Origin: Elusimicrobia bacterium RIFOXYD2_FULL_34_15 | GTDB lineage: Bacteria; Elusimicrobiota; UBA8919 | Direction of reading: 5' to 3' | NCBI GenBank assembly: GCA_001800605.1 | Contig: MGVS01000009.1 | Span: forward strand, 497-50,594 | Length of the DNA stretch: 50,098 nt | Part shown: positions 14,030 through 31,352 of the stretch, piece by piece | Position numbering within the stretch: position 1 is the first letter of the stretch | How the letters are laid out: the number at the start of each line of letters is the position of its first letter | Notes under the pieces: model-generated | What the model was told of the DNA's origin: nothing | Databases searched by the model: none | What the model saw: the letters and a program-made list of their open reading frames with translations, nothing else | Translations under genes and position numbers: made by a program

Positions 14030-16141
14030 ATGGCTGATATAAATTTATATTTAGATGGTGCTTTAAGTGGTGGCGCAAATAGAGTTGTAAAAGACTCTAA
14101 TGATAATAGTGTTCTTATTATTTCAACTAGTAATGTAGGTATAGGTACAACAGTACTAACCGAAGGACGTTTAAATATTAAACAAGTTACAGATTCGAGT
14201 AGTGGTGGACTAACAATACGCAATAGCGCTGCAGGCGGCAGTACAGTAAGATTATGGATGGATGATTCAAGTTTAGTAAGATTAGATGGTGGGTCAACAG
14301 GGTCAAGGGCAATTCTACTTGATGCCGGTGGAACTGGCAATGTGGGTATTGGTATTTCTGCCGGTACTCCTGCAGAAAAATTAACAATAGGGACAGAAAA
14401 CACGTCACCAACTAACAGAAAAGCTATTCGTCTAAATAGTGGCGGATACGCAGAGCCAGCAGCGTATAATACTGCAAGTAATGGTGATAAAATAATATTG
14501 TATGATAATACAGGATCTTTATATGATGGCAGGATAGGAATAGGTAGTGGGCAAAATTTATGGTTAAAATCGTCAGGAAGCACAGCTAATAGTGGTGAGA
14601 TTGAATTTTATACCGGTAGTACTCCTACGCGACGGCTGCATATTGATGGAAATGGTGATGTTGGTATTGGAACAACTGCTGGTGTATCGCGTTTATATAT
14701 TGTACAAAGAACTGATTCAAGTGATGGTGGAATAATAGTAAAGAATTCAAATTTAGGTGGTACAGCGAGGTTATGGATAGATGATTCAAGCAAAGCAAGA
14801 ATAGATGCGGGATCAACCGGAGCAATGCCGATTGTACTTAATGGTGGTGGTAGTGGAAAGGTTGGAATTGGTGAAACAAATCCAGCACATAAATTAGATA
14901 TTGATGGAGAGATGAAAGTAAATTCAAGAATACACGGCGGTTCTTCAGATGAATTATATTTACAGAGTGCGGTAGGTAAAGCGATAATATTTGAAACAAA
15001 TGGGGAAAGCGAAAAAGTAAGAATAACATCTGATGGTATAGTAGGTATAGGGACAACTGTTTGTAACGGCCGCTTGACCATAAGACAAATTGATAATGCA
15101 AACTATGGTGGAATAGAAATATTAACTTCGAATGGTACAAGCGGTTCTGCGAGATTTTGGATGGATAATTCAAATAGGATAAGAATAGATGGTGGTGCAG
15201 ATGCCCAAGATGATATTATATTAAATGGCGATGGACATGGTAATGTTGGAATAGGAGTAACAGCCTTAGATAGTATAGATAGCGTATTGCATGTAAAAGG
15301 AAATCTTTCTAAGATAGCGAGCGGTACAGTAGCAGTAACAAATTTGTCAGATCAGGTAATAGGTACAGGTACTAGTTTTTTAACAGAATTAGTAGTTGGT
15401 GATTCTATAAAAATAGAATCGATAGTTAATTCCGTTAAAGCAATAACTGATAATACTCATCTTACATTAAAAAATGTATGGCCAGGTTTTAGTCATTCCG
15501 GTATAACTCTTTATTATGATCCGAATTTGACATCAATATATAAAGGTTATGGAGATATTGGATTGATAATAAATAGGACAGGGAATGTGGGTATAGGATT
15601 ATCAAATCCTGGAGCTAAGTTAACAATATTAGATAGTGCAAATGAATCTTTTTATATAGTTAATTCAGGCGGAAGCACGAATTATCTTTATATGGGAGCA
15701 GTAAATGGTTTAGGTACAACAGGATATGGTAGAATCGGATTTTTCCATGGTGGTGATGCAACTTTTGGTAATTTAGTTATAGGCGATGGAGCAGCAACTA
15801 ATGTTGGTATTGGTGTAACTAATCCTACTGAGAAATTACAAGTAAATGGGAATATTTTACTTAAAAATAATTTGATGTTTTTCGATGATAATTTTAAAAT
15901 AGTATGTGATGGAAACCAGATTTATATTATGGCAAATAATGCTTTTGGGATGGCCATAGCAAATGGTGCAGTTTCAATGAATATATTAAGCGTTATAGAC
16001 CATGCTGTGCTGAATAAGATAGTTATGACTAATTATGGACAAGAGCCATCATCACCGGTAGAAGGTGAGGTTTACTATGATGCTAGGGTTGGTTATAAAA
16101 CACTTAGGGTATATGATGGAACTAATTGGAAAAATCTATAA
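14030..16141 (+). CDS. Repetitive fibre-like protein (phage tail-fibre-like / adhesin-like)
   Basis: The 703-residue protein has no signal peptide and is rich in Gly, Ser, Thr and Asn. Three units of about 85 residues recur, each running NVGIGTT, then RLxI, then a GG-rich strand, then RLWMDDSS or similar, then ILLDAGGTGNVGIG. NVGIG-like motifs continue to the end. The segment GTVAVTNLSDQVIGTGTSFL, followed by VGDSIKI, resembles domains of phage tail fibres. The C-terminus, YDARVGYKTLRVYDGTNWK, is typical of tail-fibre tips. No S74 autoprotease domain is visible. Strong promoter and GGAGG upstream. Base use (very AT-rich) and repeats suggest an accessory gene. How it would leave the cell is unclear. 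Confidence 0.7.
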   Translation: MADINLYLDGALSGGANRVVKDSNDNSVLIISTSNVGIGTTVLTEGRLNIKQVTDSSSGGLTIRNSAAGGSTVRLWMDDSSLVRLDGGSTGSRAILLDAGGTGNVGIGISAGTPAEKLTIGTENTSPTNRKAIRLNSGGYAEPAAYNTASNGDKIILYDNTGSLYDGRIGIGSGQNLWLKSSGSTANSGEIEFYTGSTPTRRLHIDGNGDVGIGTTAGVSRLYIVQRTDSSDGGIIVKNSNLGGTARLWIDDSSKARIDAGSTGAMPIVLNGGGSGKVGIGETNPAHKLDIDGEMKVNSRIHGGSSDELYLQSAVGKAIIFETNGESEKVRITSDGIVGIGTTVCNGRLTIRQIDNANYGGIEILTSNGTSGSARFWMDNSNRIRIDGGADAQDDIILNGDGHGNVGIGVTALDSIDSVLHVKGNLSKIASGTVAVTNLSDQVIGTGTSFLTELVVGDSIKIESIVNSVKAITDNTHLTLKNVWPGFSHSGITLYYDPNLTSIYKGYGDIGLIINRTGNVGIGLSNPGAKLTILDSANESFYIVNSGGSTNYLYMGAVNGLGTTGYGRIGFFHGGDATFGNLVIGDGAATNVGIGVTNPTEKLQVNGNILLKNNLMFFDDNFKIVCDGNQIYIMANNAFGMAIANGAVSMNILSVIDHAVLNKIVMTNYGQEPSSPVEGEVYYDARVGYKTLRVYDGTNWKNL

Positions 16142-16182
16142 TAATTAAAAATAAAATATCGTTTTATAGGAGAATATATTTT

Positions 16183-16995
16183 ATGAATAGTATAAGATTT
16201 ATTTTGATAAGTTTTTTTATAATTGTCATTGCTAGTGTTTCTTTATTTTCAAATAATAAATGGGATACAAATATTTATATTGGATACAAATGTATCCCAG
16301 GTAAATATTATTATTTTCAAGGAATTGAATCGTATATAAATGGTGTAGGTGTTCCTATATTACCAGCATTTGAACAAGGAGAAGTAAATTCTAATCTTGA
16401 GTTGTTAACTTTAAGATTTTCATTTTTAAAACCACAAAAAATATTTAATTTTGGTTTAGAAACAGGCATAGATTTACCTATTAAAAAGACAATCAATAAA
16501 TGGTTTAAACCCGCAACATTTAATTACACAGGTATAACAAGATTTCCTCGTTCTGACTTTGGTATTTCTAGCCCTAATGCAGATGATACTTATACAAAGG
16601 AAATTAGTACAATAGCATTTCCTTTGTTGGTGAAATTTAGCAAGAGGATGCTTAACAAAGGAAATTTAAATTTTGATTTAGGTTTAAATATCGGGGAATA
16701 TTTGATATTCCAAAAAATAGAGACATTTGAAATGTTTGAATCAAAAGTTAATATTGGTAGTACTTATAATTTAGCAACAAGAGATATAAATATTTATTCT
16801 AAAATAATTGCTGAATTTAACCCTGAAGTGAAATACAAACTTAAAGATAATTGCTTTATAGGGATTTTCGGTGATATTGGTTACATTCCTAAATTTGAAA
16901 TGTTATTAGAAGAAGATACCAATACTTTTAAAACCAAGTATGAATTTGGTGGTTTAACATATGGTGGTGGATTAAATTTTAATTTAGATTTTTAA
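16183..16995 (+). CDS. Predicted outer-membrane beta-barrel protein
   Basis: A 270-residue protein with a signal peptide (1-22, FILISFFIIVIASVSLFS). It then has alternating amphipathic strands with aromatic girdles (WDTNIYIGYKC, FNFGLETGIDL, NFDLGLNIG, CFIGIFGDIGYIP), ending in GGGLNFNLDF with a terminal Phe, the classic barrel signature. The frame is open further upstream, but the ATG at 16183 has AGGAG 10 bases before it and gives a proper signal peptide. It follows the fibre-like gene in the same transcript, so a surface partner role is plausible. The family is not recognised. Confidence 0.75.
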   Translation: MNSIRFILISFFIIVIASVSLFSNNKWDTNIYIGYKCIPGKYYYFQGIESYINGVGVPILPAFEQGEVNSNLELLTLRFSFLKPQKIFNFGLETGIDLPIKKTINKWFKPATFNYTGITRFPRSDFGISSPNADDTYTKEISTIAFPLLVKFSKRMLNKGNLNFDLGLNIGEYLIFQKIETFEMFESKVNIGSTYNLATRDINIYSKIIAEFNPEVKYKLKDNCFIGIFGDIGYIPKFEMLLEEDTNTFKTKYEFGGLTYGGGLNFNLDF

Positions 16996-17162: not shown

Positions 17163-17272
17163 CCCCGTTAGAAAACAAAGTTTTCTAATGGTTCTGCGTA
17201 ATGGTGGCATTAAACCATTATTTACTTCACAATTTTACCACCGATTTTGTAAGTGGTTTTTCTCTAACTGGG
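17163..17272 (-). mobile_element. 110-bp palindrome-ended element (intergenic copy, inverse orientation)
   Basis: It begins CCCCGTTAGAAAAC and ends TTCTCTAACTGGG. Its reverse complement aligns along the full 110 bp with the element in glyS (29401-29510), sharing AGTTAGAGAAAA-CCAC, GTGGTAAA and TTGTGAAG in the same order. The flanks are A-rich. It begins one base after the stop codon of the 50-residue gene. Confidence 0.8.
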
Positions 17273-17301
17273 AAAATAATTTGATTTATCAATTTTGCTA
17301 G

Positions 17302-17340
17302 ATTTAAAAGCCCTAAAGTTTATTTTAAGGGCTTTTAAAT
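17302..17340 (+). terminator. Strong hairpin, probable terminator of the fibre/barrel transcript
   Basis: ATTTAAAAGCCCT (17302-17314) pairs with AGGGCTTTTAAAT (17328-17340) across a 13-base loop, ending in TTTT. It is 4 bases before the AGGAGG of the glycosyltransferase gene, so it could also modulate read-through into that gene. Confidence 0.65.
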
Positions 17341-17360
17341 TATTAGGAGGAAGAAATACT

Positions 17361-18671
17361 ATGAAACAATTAACTATAGGCATTGCATCTATCTTTCCGG
17401 ATAAATTAAAAAAGTGTTTAGATTTGGTTACAGCTTATACTAATAATATAGATTATGAAATAATAGTTTGCGGTACACAAGAAGTTGAACCAATTGTAAA
17501 AATGTATCCAAATGCCAGATTTATATTAGATACAGAAAACAATGCAGTATTAGCTTATCAGAGAACCTTAGAAAATAGTTTGGGTGAATATTTTGCAATA
17601 TTAAATGATGATAATTACGTAACTCAAAACTGGGCGGAAAACATGTTAAATTTTTTAGCTCCGTATAAAAATGAAAAGAATGTCTGCGGAGTATTTCGCA
17701 TGTTTTCTGAACCCCAGCGCGAAATCCCGCCATTTGCTTTGGATATAGGATTATATCCAACAATATTTTGCATGAAAACCGCTGAATTAAAAGAATTAGG
17801 CGGGTTTGATCGTGGTTATAAAATGTGGTTTATTGACCCAGACCTTGGAATGAGAATATGGAAAAATGGCGGAAAGGTGTTATTGTGTCCAAATAGCATA
17901 GTATTTCACGAACAAGAATTAAACAAAAATAGAGAAGAAAGAATGGCAAAATATTGGAAGGATGATGAACAAAAATTTGAAAGTTACTGGGGTTATAAGT
18001 TAAGATATAGAAACGATAATAAATATAATGTCATATTTTGCCTGCCCGGCAATAATTTCTCTGGTAAATTCTTGGATTCATGGACTAGTTTAATAACATA
18101 TTGTATGTCTAAAGGTATTAAATTTGCAGTATCAAGGAGCGAATCCTGTAATATATACTATGTAAGGAATATGTGTTTAGGAGCAAATGTAAGTAGAGGC
18201 GAAAATCAAAAGCCATTTGATGGGAAAATTGATTATGATTATCTAATGTGGATTGACTCGGACATGGTATTTAATCCGCAACAGTTTGAACGGTTGTTAT
18301 CACATAACAAAGATATAGTATCCGGTCTTTATTTGATGGATAGTGGTAAGCAATTTGCTACTGTTAAGGATTGGGATGAAAAATTCTTTGAAAAAAATGG
18401 TTATTTTCAGTTTCTAACACAAGATGACATAAAAGATAAAAATGAATTAATGGAAGTGAGCTATACCGGATTTGGGTTTATATTAATTAAAAAAGGTGTA
18501 TTTGAAAGTATGACGTACCCATGGTTTAAGCCGATAGAGAAGAAAATAGGCAATATGGTAGATTTTACTATGGAAGATGTAGCATTTTGTCTACGGGCAA
18601 AAGAAAAAGGATTAAAGATATATATTGATCCTTTAATAAAAGCCGGTCATGAAAAAAAGATTGTATATTAG
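17361..18671 (+). CDS. Tandem-domain glycosyltransferase
   Basis: The 436-residue protein contains two GT-A-like halves. The N-terminal half (about 1-210) is a GT2-like domain with the acidic motif ILNDDNYV and the later FDRGYKMWFIDPDLGMRIW. The C-terminal half (about 225-436) has YLMWIDSDMVFNPQQFERLL with a DSD motif, then YTGFGFILIKKGVFE. Bifunctional proteins of this kind build short glycans on surface or phage structures. The frame extends upstream to a TTG, but that crosses the terminator-like hairpin, and the ATG at 17361 has AGGAGG. It probably acts with the fibre-like and barrel proteins. Confidence 0.83.
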   Translation: MKQLTIGIASIFPDKLKKCLDLVTAYTNNIDYEIIVCGTQEVEPIVKMYPNARFILDTENNAVLAYQRTLENSLGEYFAILNDDNYVTQNWAENMLNFLAPYKNEKNVCGVFRMFSEPQREIPPFALDIGLYPTIFCMKTAELKELGGFDRGYKMWFIDPDLGMRIWKNGGKVLLCPNSIVFHEQELNKNREERMAKYWKDDEQKFESYWGYKLRYRNDNKYNVIFCLPGNNFSGKFLDSWTSLITYCMSKGIKFAVSRSESCNIYYVRNMCLGANVSRGENQKPFDGKIDYDYLMWIDSDMVFNPQQFERLLSHNKDIVSGLYLMDSGKQFATVKDWDEKFFEKNGYFQFLTQDDIKDKNELMEVSYTGFGFILIKKGVFESMTYPWFKPIEKKIGNMVDFTMEDVAFCLRAKEKGLKIYIDPLIKAGHEKKIVY

Positions 18672-21887: not shown

Positions 21888-22063
21888 TTGAAAAACCCCT
21901 GCCTGACGGTAGGCAGGCAACAATTTCTGATTTCACAGATTAAAGTTTAGATTACACAGGTTATGGTTCGACTTCGCTCACCACTTTGGGTTAGTCGTTA
22001 AATCTGCGTAATCGTTTTTAGAAATCTGTGTAATCAAGACCAGTTGATGGTTTTTTCAACGGG
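21888..22063. repeat. Composite repeat region between LysM gene and phoH
   Basis: GTTGAAAAACCCC (about 21887-21899) and GGTTTTTTCAACGGGG (about 22047-22062) bracket the gap as approximate inverted ends. Between them are CCTGCCT/AGGCAGG (21898-21917), GATTACACAGG and AATCTGCGTAATC/AATCTGTGTAATC. The repeat ends 7 bases before the phoH ATG with no Shine-Dalgarno. Confidence 0.6.
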
Positions 22064-27363: not shown

Positions 27364-27881
27364 TTTTTAATACACAGGCGATAATTATCAGAAAAATGGA
27401 TTATAAGGACTACGACCGTATTCTTACCTTATATACCAGCGATTTTGGTAAAATAAAATTGCTTGCTAAAAGTGTAAGGAAACCCAAAGCAAAGTTAACA
27501 CAGCTAACTGAGCTTTTTATACTTTGCGAATTCAGAATATTTTTAAGAGAATCCTTTTCATTTGGCAAATTAACAGGCGGTGTGATACTTGATTCCAATC
27601 CATTAATAAGGTATGATATTGAAAAATTTTATGAGGCGTCTTATATGTGCGAGGTTATGGATGCAATGACTCCTGACCGCCAGCCCAACATCCAGAAATT
27701 TTATTTATTGAAAGATAAACTTTCACTCTTAAATAAAAATATTATGAATCAAAAAGACGATTTTATAGAGAAATTATTGCATCTTACAGGATTTGGAGTT
27801 AAAAAAGGTGTTCCTTTGGATAAAATTTTACAGGAGCATATTAAATATCCTTTGAAAACGGAAAGTGCGATTGTAAGATAG
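27360..27881 (+). CDS. recO: DNA repair protein RecO, short form
   Basis: The 173-residue protein has the RecO N-terminal OB fold (QAIIIRKMDYKDYDRILTLY, then GKIKLLAKSVRKPKAKL) and the helical domain (LRESFSFGKLTGG, then YDIEKFYEASYM). Most RecO proteins are about 230-250 residues and carry a CxxC zinc ribbon, which is absent here; the final helix is retained. RecO loads RecA with RecF and RecR. The last codons and the TAG stop lie within the left arm of the S23 cassette, so the natural C-terminus may have been altered by that insertion. Confidence 0.83.
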   Translation: MIFNTQAIIIRKMDYKDYDRILTLYTSDFGKIKLLAKSVRKPKAKLTQLTELFILCEFRIFLRESFSFGKLTGGVILDSNPLIRYDIEKFYEASYMCEVMDAMTPDRQPNIQKFYLLKDKLSLLNKNIMNQKDDFIEKLLHLTGFGVKKGVPLDKILQEHIKYPLKTESAIVR

Positions 27882-28314
27882 TGGGATAGCGCCTGCCCGC
27901 CGATGGTTCAGTGGCGGGGGATAGCGGGATAGTGCGATGAAAATAGAGAAGTTCGAGGATTTGATTTCTTGGCAAGAATCAAGAAAATTAAATAAAAGCA
28001 TTTACGAATTAACAAATAGTTTTATTTTGAAAGATAGAGATTTATCACAACAAATACGAAGAGCTTCTGTGTCCGTAATGGCGAATATTGCTGAGGGTTT
28101 TATGAGATTTGGATTCAAAGAAAGAAAACAGTTTTATACAATGTCCAGAAGTTCATTGTCAGAATTAAAAAGCCATTTTTATATTGTTTTAGATTTGAAA
28201 TTGATCAATCAAAGTGATTTTGACTTAATTATTCAACAAATAGATATTGTCGGGAAATTGCTAAGTGGTATGATTCGTTCAATCGCACGATATCACTAAC
28301 GCGCAATCGCACTT
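27863..28314 (+). mobile_element. S23-type cassette with 11-bp terminal inverted repeats
   Basis: AAGTGCGATTG (27863-27873) and CAATCGCACTT (28304-28314) are exact inverted repeats enclosing a 452-bp segment. Inside are further GATAGTGGGATAGCG and GGATAGCGGGATAGTGCGATG phrases, a CCCGCC/GGCGGG hairpin (27897-27919) and a four-helix-bundle gene whose start and stop lie within the repeat arms. It sits between recO and glyQ, disturbing only the recO tail. Confidence 0.65.
27937..28299 (+). CDS. Four-helix-bundle protein of the 23S rRNA intervening-sequence (S23) family
   Basis: The 120-residue protein has the family hallmarks FEDLISWQESRKLNKSIYEL, then QQIRRASVSVMANIAEGF and a FYTMSRSSLSELKSH motif. 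Such proteins were first found encoded in intervening sequences of 23S rRNA genes and are relatives of the Avd accessory protein of diversity-generating retroelements. No rRNA or reverse transcriptase is nearby. The ATG is embedded in the repeat (GTGCGATG) and the C-terminal SIARYH is encoded by the right repeat arm, so gene and repeats behave as one unit. Confidence 0.88.
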   Translation: MKIEKFEDLISWQESRKLNKSIYELTNSFILKDRDLSQQIRRASVSVMANIAEGFMRFGFKERKQFYTMSRSSLSELKSHFYIVLDLKLINQSDFDLIIQQIDIVGKLLSGMIRSIARYH

Positions 28315-28320
28315 GTCTCT

Positions 28321-29163
28321 ATGAATTTTCAAGAAATTATTTTTACGCTTACAAAGTTTTGGGCAAAGCAAGGCTGTGTAATTGTTCAACCTTATGATAT
28401 AGAAAAAGGTGCAGGTACATTTAATCCTGCCACTTTTTTAAGGTGTCTTGGGGAAAAGCCATGGTCTGCCGCATATGTCGAACCTTCCCGCAGGCCTACA
28501 GACGGAAGATACGGGGAGAATCCGAACCGTTTACAACATTATTATCAATTTCAGGCAGTATTGAAGCCTGCACCGAAAGATGTTCAAAAAATGTATTTAT
28601 CTTCACTTAGAGCCATTGGTCTTAATCCCGAAAAACATGATATTAGATTTGTTGAAGATGACTGGGAAAGCCCTACATTGGGCGCCTCCGGGCTTGGCTG
28701 GGAGGTTTGGTGTGACGGAATGGAGATAACCCAGTTTACATATTTTCAAAACATGGCAGGAATACAGCTAAATCCGATTACGGTTGAAATTACGTACGGG
28801 CTTGAACGGATTGCGATGTATATTCAAAAGAAAAAATCAGTTTATGATATTATGTGGAATGAAGAATTGAAATACGGCGATATTCATCTTGAGGATGAAA
28901 AACAATTTTCTAAATACAACTTTGAAGAAGCTGATGTAGAGCTTTTAAAAGAACTATTTGATAAATATGAAAAAGAATGTAAAACGCTTTTGTTAAAAAA
29001 TTTGATATTGCCGGCTTATGATTTTGTTATGAAAGTTTCGCATACATTTAATTTACTAGATGCAAGGCGTGCAATTTCTGTAAGCCAGCGTGTATCTTAC
29101 ATTACTAGGGTAAGAAATTTAGCGAGTGAAGTTGCAAGAAAGTATTTGGAAAATCAAAAATGA
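28321..29163 (+). CDS. glyQ: Glycyl-tRNA synthetase alpha subunit
   Basis: The 280-residue subunit carries the class II catalytic core: [18 protein letters not shown], then [39 protein letters not shown], and [17 protein letters not shown]. It pairs with GlyS as an alpha2-beta2 enzyme. Length is near the bacterial norm of about 290-300. The start lies 6 bases after the right end of the S23 cassette with no obvious Shine-Dalgarno. It overlaps glyS by ATGA. Confidence 0.96.
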
Positions 29164-31352
29164 GTAAAGATATATTATTAGAAATAGGAACCGAAGAAAT
29201 TCCGGCAGGATATATTGACGCTGCAATTGAGCAGCTGAAAGTAAAATCCGAGAATGAGCTGAAATCCGCACGACTGGGATATAAGAAAATAAACGTTTAT
29301 GCGACCTTGAGGCGGCTGGTTATATATGTAGAGGATGTTGCTGAACAACAGGCCGCATTTGAATCAGAAATCGCCGGGCCTGTCGCAAAAGTTGCGTTTA
29401 CCCCGTTAGAGAAAACCACCGACTTTGTGGGTGGTAAACCTTGTGAAGCAAGCGATAGTTTAACGCCGCCGTTAAATATAACCGATGGGAAAAAAAGTTC
29501 TCTAACGGGGTTTACATATGGAAAGCCGACGCAGGTAGCAGTAGGGTTTGCTAAAAAATATGGTGTAGATGTTTCTGAATTAATAATAAAAAATGAGCGC
29601 GTATATATATTAAAAAAAGAACCGGCATTAAAAACCGAAAACGTACTTGCCGGAATTTTCACAAAAATAATTTCTTCTTTAACATTTCCTAAAACTATGG
29701 TTTGGGAAATATCGCAATTTAGATTTGCCCGCCCAATAAGATGGATAGTCGCTTTGTACGGTAAAAAAGTTATAAAATTCCAGGTAGCCGATGTGAAGTC
29801 TTCAAATTTTACCTGCATTCGTTATTTTAAAAAAACTAAGATTAGTGACCCGCAAAAGTATATCATCATATTGAGAAATAAAAGTATTATTATAGAACCG
29901 TCAGTTAGAATTGAAATATTGAAAAAAACGGTTTCATCTCAGGTAAAAGGTAAAGGTGAAATTGTTAAAAGCGATGAAGTTTTTGAAACAGTTAATAATA
30001 TGATAGAATTTCCGACTGCTATTCTTTGCAAATTTGACGAGAAATTTCTGCATTTACCAAAAGAAATAATAATAAATACTCTGAAAAAACAAAAAGATTT
30101 TGTAATTATTGATTCTTCGGAGAATATCCTTCCATATTTTATAGGTGTAAAAGACGGTATTTCGACCAATATTGATATTATTCGTGAAGGTTTTGAAAAA
30201 GTAGTAGCAGCCCGCCTGGGAGATGCGGAATTTTATTTTAATAATGATATAAAAATAAAGTTAGAGGATAAGTTTGATAAATTAAAAGATATTACTTTTC
30301 AGGAAAAGCTTGGTACAATATTTGACAAAGTTCGGCGTATTGAGAAATTATCGGAATGGTTAAGCAATAATTCGTCTGTAAAAGAAAAAATAAATCCGGC
30401 TGATATTAGCCGTATATGCCATTTGTGTAAAATTGATTTATCAACCGAAATAGTTTCCGAATTTCCTGAATTTCAGGGTATTTTCGGCAAAATTTGCGCT
30501 CAAAAAAATAACGAAGAAAAACTTGTCTCAGACGGAATTGAGCAGCACTGGTGGCCGATAAATTATGACGGCAAAATTCCGGAATCATATGAAGCTTCTA
30601 TCATTTCTATTGCTGATAAAATTGATACTCTGGTTGGTGATTTTGCAATAGGCCTGGGTCCGACAGGTTCTAATGATCCGTATGGTTTAAGGCGGTTCGC
30701 TTTTGGTATAATAAAAATTGCGATAGAAAAAGAGATATCTTTTTCAATAAGGGAGTTAATAATTCAGTCAATTTCAAACCTTCCTTATAGAACAGATACC
30801 AATAAAGAACTTATTTTACAGATTGAAGATTTTTTAAAACAACGTTTAACTACCTATTTATTAGATAAAGGAATTAAAATTGACGAAATAGATTCTGTAT
30901 TATCAACGAAATTTACGGATATTCTGGATTCGTACCAATGTGTTGCTGCTGTTCACTCGATAAGAAATCTTGCGGATTTTGAACCGATTGCCGTTTCATT
31001 CAAGCGAATAGGCAACATATTGAAACAAGCAAATAGACAGGAAGTAGTGAGCGGGAAATGGGAAGTTGATGAAAAACTTCTCATAGAAACAGAAGAAAAG
31101 GAACTTTATGAAAAGTTTTCGGTAATAAAAAATAATGTTGAAATTTTTATTAATAACAATGATTATAAATTAGCACTCAAAGAATTGGTATCATTAAGAA
31201 CATTCGTTGATAATTTTTTTGAAAAAGTTCTTATTATGGATAAAGATGAAAGAATAAAAAATAACAGGGTGTCTCTATTAAAACTATTGCACAACGAATT
31301 TATTAAAATTGCAGATTTTTCTAAAATAGTTGTCGAAAAAGGTAATGTGTAA
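29160..31352 (+). CDS. glyS: Glycyl-tRNA synthetase beta subunit with 38-residue in-frame element insertion
   Basis: The 730-residue subunit has the GlyS N-terminal domain ([15 protein letters not shown]), an HD-like central domain (LADAEFYF-type segment, here [11 protein letters not shown]) and a C-terminal DALR anticodon-binding region. It binds and recognises tRNA-Gly. It is longer than the usual 690 or so residues because of about 38 residues (81-118) encoded by a palindromic element. The flanks, GPVAKVAF and [13 protein letters not shown], join to give the normal GlyS sequence (compare QAFDAEGKPSKAAEGWA in E. coli). The element's encoded peptide is polar and probably looped out. The stop codon overlaps a CRP-like site. 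Confidence 0.95.
29401..29510 (+). mobile_element. 110-bp palindrome-ended element inserted in frame within glyS
   Basis: It starts CCCCGTTAGAGAA and ends TTCTCTAACGGGG, a perfect 13-bp terminal inverted repeat. TTTA lies on both sides (29397-29400 and 29511-29514), as expected of a target duplication. 110 + 4 = 114 bp, exactly 38 codons, so the frame is kept. A diverged full-length copy is at 17163-17272. Confidence 0.87.

Follow-up and report, generated by a model that had tools for sequence, protein, structure and literature searches.

Protein-embedded palindromic elements have so far been seen as largely a Rickettsiales oddity, with a mechanism of movement that is unexplained. Rickettsia palindromic elements (RPEs) were reportedly described by Ogata et al. 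in 2000 and 2002. Several RPE families lie in frame in housekeeping genes, where they encode a translated peptide, and intergenic copies exist as well (PMC10969869). Occasional in-frame fusions are also known for bacterial MITEs (PMC5896051, PMC10969869), and the rRNA genes of CPR bacteria contain GIY-YIG-encoding insertions, described as neither introns nor homing-like, alongside ORF-less insertions that are mostly <200 bp (PMC11270868).

Here we present a 110-bp element in the glyS gene of an Elusimicrobiota genome, which is very probably a non-autonomous transposon with terminal inverted repeats (TIRs), or MITE, of a family that we call 'coding palindromes'. The resemblance to RPEs drawn in the original prediction holds in behavior, where the element is palindromic, ~110 bp long and in frame in a housekeeping gene. 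Like RPEs, members of the family are ~100-150 bp palindromes that occupy in-frame positions in numerous unrelated protein-coding genes and are also found in intergenic DNA. In contrast to RPEs, their host here is one of the Elusimicrobiota and not of the Rickettsiales, and the family has defined 13-bp TIRs, clear 4-bp target-site duplications (TSDs) and same-tip elements that encode a GIY-YIG protein. Element peptides have no NCBIfam or Pfam match at E<=1, and an Rfam search of the window and five loci returned no match, to group I/II introns or otherwise; the glyS-type element is set apart from RPEs by description, and its family is apparently new and independent of them. Correia, ERIC, BOX/RUP and Coxiella QMITE1/2 elements are likewise short, with TIRs, TSDs, a folded transcript and no transposase, but they are mostly intergenic, whereas frame neutrality is systematic here, and no described family in the searched libraries has tips matching the glyS type. 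The CPR insertions share the combination of GIY-YIG ORFs with short ORF-less forms, in phyla where the CCCCGTTAGAGA-type TIR is common, although they occupy rRNA and not protein genes and the term inverted repeats is absent from PMC11270868; they probably represent the same element class in another setting. We found no open-access paper on coding palindromes in Elusimicrobiota or Omnitrophota. Protein-hidden mobile DNA, best known from Rickettsia, exists outside it, with dozens of relatives of the glyS element in frame in core genes of uncultured phyla.

The element within glyS

All data come from metagenome-assembled genomes. The window, by which we mean the whole 50,098-nucleotide stretch analyzed, carries glyS, encoding the glycyl-tRNA synthetase beta subunit, on the forward strand at 29160-31352 (PF02092, E=6e-162; TIGR00211, E=6e-202), with glyQ directly upstream at 28321-29163. 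The 730-aa GlyS reading frame is uninterrupted across the element, which lies on the same strand at 29401-29510 (covariance model E=1e-20) and would be translated in its PLEK...SLTG reading. Its left TIR, CCCCGTTAGAGAA (29401-29413), is common to copies genome-wide and pairs without mismatch over 13 bp with the right TIR, TTCTCTAACGGGG (29498-29510). Identical TTTA duplications flank the element at 29397-29400 and 29511-29514, and such 4-bp TSDs are found in most copies. Between the TIRs, internal hairpin 1 (ACCACC...GGTGGT, 29415-29435) displays compensatory changes among relatives; the region of internal hairpin 2 (29451-29473) is poorly kept in the glyS copy and is conserved family-wide with compensatory changes. 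The transcript is predicted to fold strongly on itself, with the 13-bp TIR closing the hairpin (folding z-score -5.3). Together with one TTTA, the 110 bp amount to 114 bp, or 38 codons, corresponding to GlyS residues 81-118. The perfect TIR, the duplication and the in-frame addition of 38 codons are all as the original prediction had described them.

Comparison with other GlyS proteins reveals the empty site. All 20 of the 20 relatives searched, the congener included, lack the 38-residue segment, such that the query alignment stops at residue 80/81 and restarts at ~116-121. Relatives read ...VAY-LN-GQPTQVALGFAKKYG... at this position, and the congener GlyS, which is 77% identical, aligns across the insertion point as GPTANVAY-LN-GQPTQVALGF. 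The proposed line-up of the protein with other GlyS sequences once the insert is removed was therefore recovered, and no homologous segment was found in any of these close or distant proteins. An AlphaFold2 model of GlyS built from 16 sequences places strands at residues 80-82 and 120-123 on either side of the insert and assigns pLDDT <50 to residues 85-118, against an overall mean of 84. The suggestion that the insert forms a loop is in keeping with this single model, in which it is predicted to be a disordered, floppy loop at a beta-hairpin turn.

The simplest timing would be an insertion at TTTA, with duplication of the 4 bp, after the split from the nearest sequenced congener. Since the congener GlyS lacks the segment, the glyS copy would be either recent or lost in the congener. 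The gene would have stayed a single reading frame because 110+4 is divisible by 3, the tips are stop-free in two of three frames and the interior is open. The expected product is a GlyS that carries 38 additional residues as a loop where a beta-hairpin turns, which the synthetase presumably tolerates.

Two further repeats were observed in the window. A gene for a 23S rRNA intervening-sequence protein (27863-28314; PF05635, E=2e-29) lies just upstream of glyQ and is bracketed by the inverted repeat AAGTGCGATTG/CAATCGCACTT, so that gene and repeats together look like an inserted cassette. Palindromes of the CCTGCCTGCCGGCAGGCAGGGGTTTT type, from another REP-like family, form an inverted pair at 2363-2388 and 21892-21917.

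A dispersed family with shared tips

Inspection of the 2.47-Mb window genome reveals 62 exact occurrences of the 11-mer CCCGTTAGAGA, versus 1 for a reversed control, and these are mostly paired at distances of 80-125 bp. Paired copies share their tips and are of at least three kinds: kind A (118-124 bp, GAGAT, with a GGAAGC..GCTTCC hairpin), whose right end is common with the GIY-YIG gene discussed below; kind B (82-84 bp, ATGTTG..CAACAT); and kind C, the glyS kind (101-110 bp, GAGAA). At least five copies of kind C are present in this genome, comprising glyS, C79:7004-7113, C9:17659-17768, C14:49-157 and C44:21332-21432, and a degraded copy lies on C40. The C9 copy is a second 110-bp element in the window (17163-17272, reverse strand), situated between ORFs 16126-16995 and 17295-18671 and bounded by imperfect TIRs. 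Two further genes of the same genome hold kind C in frame, encoding a TMEM260-like/TPR protein (C79) and a TIGR03936 radical-SAM-linked protein (C44). By 11-mer counts, TIR pairs and the covariance model alike, many copies with the same ends exist elsewhere in the genome, a point on which the original prediction had depended.

The flanking 4-bp duplications vary between copies and match within each, being TAAA in 31 of the GAGAA-type copies, TTTA in 15, TTGA in 3, TTCA in 2 and six other sequences once each. A chance origin of the repeat is ruled out by the 62 occurrences against 1 in the control, by TSDs that match exactly in 57 of 72 GAGAA-type copies and by the folding of the glyS transcript. 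Several features of a MITE are present, namely perfect 13-bp TIRs, the TTTA TSD, dispersed copies and empty sites. Several loci (L066, L067, L071, L092, L123 and L172) display tandem elements with a single 4-bp spacer between them (such as TAAG, TGAA or TTCA), which looks as though new copies had inserted beside old ones.

Structure is conserved across the family. Two internal hairpins and the terminal stem are common to 24 aligned copies of family C, where 13 of 27 pairs have compensatory changes. Hairpin covariation reaches 0.239, versus 0.140 for shuffled alignments (matched in 0 of 500 shuffles), and pairing is 94%, versus 38-54% when the structure is slid. The family C covariance model has matches in 18 of 336 Elusimicrobiota genomes. 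A scan of bacterial genomes for the TIR pair returned at least 117 stretches, and the matches listed include Omnitrophota, many Patescibacteria lineages, Planctomycetota, Myxococcota-assigned MAGs, WOR-3, Elusimicrobiota and others; relatives of the element also occur in Auribacterota. The TIR pair was absent from the viral contigs searched, and the plasmid and phage collections searched gave no match.

Frame neutrality and host genes

To describe the relation to reading frames, a copy was termed frame-neutral when its length plus 4 is divisible by 3. Among GAGAA-type copies, 49 of 73 are frame-neutral, and in 61 of 73 a frame runs open across the whole element; ORFs of 150 codons or more hold 29 of the 73, and 25 of those 29 are neutral. 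This contrasts with the GAGAT/GAGAC class, which has the same 11-bp core and yet is neutral in 27 of 111 copies and lies in such ORFs in 2 of 111. A census of TIR pairs, exact or with one mismatch, covered two genomes, G151, an Elusimicrobia MAG from the phylum of the window genome, and G338, and found neutral lengths in 33/36 and 23/31 copies, respectively. Copies that share a length by descent are non-independent data points; counted as distinct lengths, 17 of 27 are neutral (P ~0.0015 under an expectation of 1/3). Neutral lengths in the family include 59, 62, 65, 71, 77, 80, 107, 110, 113, 131 and 140 bp. One subfamily of 65 bp was noted in G151 (L388-L406), with the same tips, about nine pairs at that exact spacing and a frame-neutral sum of 65+4=69.

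Mid-gene insertions, defined as those that lie 40 or more codons within an empty-site ORF spanning no fewer than 150 codons, are open in 13/13 and 10/10 cases in the two censused genomes and in 3/4 in the window genome, where the sole non-open mid-ORF site (L087, G000) is that of another element kind. The in-frame bias anticipated across copies is evident both in the neutral lengths and in these 23 of 23 open insertions. One of the three tip frames contains TAG, and genes use the other two, which read PLE[KN]...SLTG and [NR]PVR[ED]...FSNGV.

The host genes are diverse. They encode MnmE, ThyX, QueC, GcvT, a UvrD-like helicase and an HI0933-like flavoprotein in G338; YbeY, NAD kinase, a glycosyltransferase, histidine kinases and a GH38-like protein in G151; and PriA and ComF in Uhrbacteria. 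The insert lies inside real domains of MnmE, QueC, YbeY, ThyX, GcvT, NAD kinase and GlyS, and in QueC, YbeY, MnmE and GcvT one domain match extends across it with a residue surplus of about the insert size, as for QueC, with 242 residues versus 208 model positions. Prepilin genes of two Omnitrophota genomes are entered exactly at the leader, GFT|LIE or LVE (L119 6334 and 6918; L211 2804), probably because this motif can encode TTTA. Conserved proteins of uncultured phyla may hold transposon-derived loops of 20-45 residues (PLEK...SLTG or NPVRE...FSNGV), which is a warning for annotation.

The TMEM260-like gene on C79 offers a view of the later fate of an insert. Its congener has an orthologous insert (FFPLGKTTD...SILSKLT) with TIRs decayed or lost and 7 codons missing, still in frame, while more distant relatives have an empty site or something else there. 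Because the congener copy remains in frame after TIR decay, the insert at this site appears to have outlived its mobile features as retained coding sequence, and it would be older than the glyS insertion. Separately, the corresponding loop in the G002 TMEM260-like protein contains another small in-frame palindrome, CCCCCCTGCCAGTTTTGC..GCAAAACTAGGGGGG (L411, G002:C8:99500-102000); this loop is struck by two element kinds.

Frame neutrality and openness are maintained across family lineages, and most simply this would be because only neutral, open copies survive in genes and then act as sources of later copies. Passive survivorship is unlikely, though it deserves serious weight; in this view the element is an ordinary MITE that lands anywhere and has no adaptation to genes, and frame-neutral insertions are simply the ones that were not lethal. 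Purifying selection alone would purge frameshifting insertions from essential genes, and part of the length bias reflects descent from few master copies. Neither consideration accounts well for neutral lengths kept in copies outside long ORFs too, for the many different lengths that are neutral, for the open frame in most GAGAA-type copies or for the sister class, which has the same tips and displays none of these properties.

Two other explanations would remove the need for a tolerated mobile insert. Were the segment excised or skipped at the RNA or ribosome level, as an intron-like sequence, a bypass or a processed intervening sequence, GlyS would be normal, and the strong transcript hairpin would fit this reading. 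Removal of this kind requires neither an open frame nor a multiple of 3, yet both are strongly kept; the Rfam search, moreover, found no intron or other match, and the congener's decayed TMEM260-like copy stays in frame despite having lost its TIRs. We regard this explanation as highly improbable. Still harder to credit, to the point of near-impossibility, is a lineage-specific functional GlyS domain that is not mobile DNA: an in-frame position at a loop would suit it, but the segment is missing from all other GlyS examined, and related DNA, with TIRs and TSDs, is found within unrelated genes as well as between genes, on either strand and in two reading frames.

A GIY-YIG candidate for mobilization

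As a MITE, the glyS element would probably be mobilized in trans by a nuclease that recognizes the shared CCCCGTTAGAGA tips, and the best candidate is an 85-aa GIY-YIG protein (PF01541, E=1.5e-14) whose ORF these tips bracket. The bracketed element is 277 bp in the window genome (L078 1067-1343, G000:C103) and in the congener, with identical proteins, 274 bp with a TTAA TSD in G038 (L288/L346) and ~279 bp in a Daviesbacteria MAG. The right tip encodes the C-terminus FLSLTG of the protein, and at the other end the ATG is set back ~24 bp from the left tip. Related GIY-YIG genes have other tips, namely CCCCGCACCTTT...AAAGGTGCGGGG with TTTA/TTTA duplications in G011 (L221/L349) and CCCCGTGAAAT in G149 (L350). 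Overall, TIR-flanked GIY-YIG ORFs have three different TIR sequences, some with exact 4-bp TSDs, and possibly constitute minimal autonomous transposons of 274-300 bp. The TIR-flanked ORFs of ~85 aa include one at L190 785.

Since the tips directly bracket the GIY-YIG ORF, a minimal transposon of this type, usable by family C, is plausible, as is the protein's role as mobilizer. A search of the fetched loci for larger, transposase-bearing forms of up to 3.5 kb that share these tips and have matching TSDs found only the GIY-YIG elements and pairs that were nested or due to chance. In G151 and G338, the genomes richest in family C, the only GIY-YIG hits were weak (E 1e-9 and 1e-14), and TIRs were missing from the one examined in G338; a GIY-YIG role is unsupported for the family in these two genomes. 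The simple version is disfavored because both have family C in abundance yet lack a GIY-YIG gene between TIRs.

A broader proposal, which we advance tentatively and hold at somewhat below even, is an undescribed transposon class in which a lone TIR-flanked 85-aa GIY-YIG gene (274-279 bp) would be the whole autonomous element and its tips would drive derivatives that are not autonomous; one lineage of these would have become frame-neutral with stop-free tips and entered essential proteins in several uncultured phyla. We found no open-access paper on GIY-YIG TIR elements in bacteria. The readable anatomy of the system, with TIRs, TSDs, orthologous sites both with and without the insert, a sister-class control and a candidate nuclease, makes questions of movement and tolerance testable. 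One 106-bp element with CCCCGTTAGAGA...TCTCTAACGGGG tips (L201 5895-6000) encloses a complete tRNA-Ala (CGC) gene.
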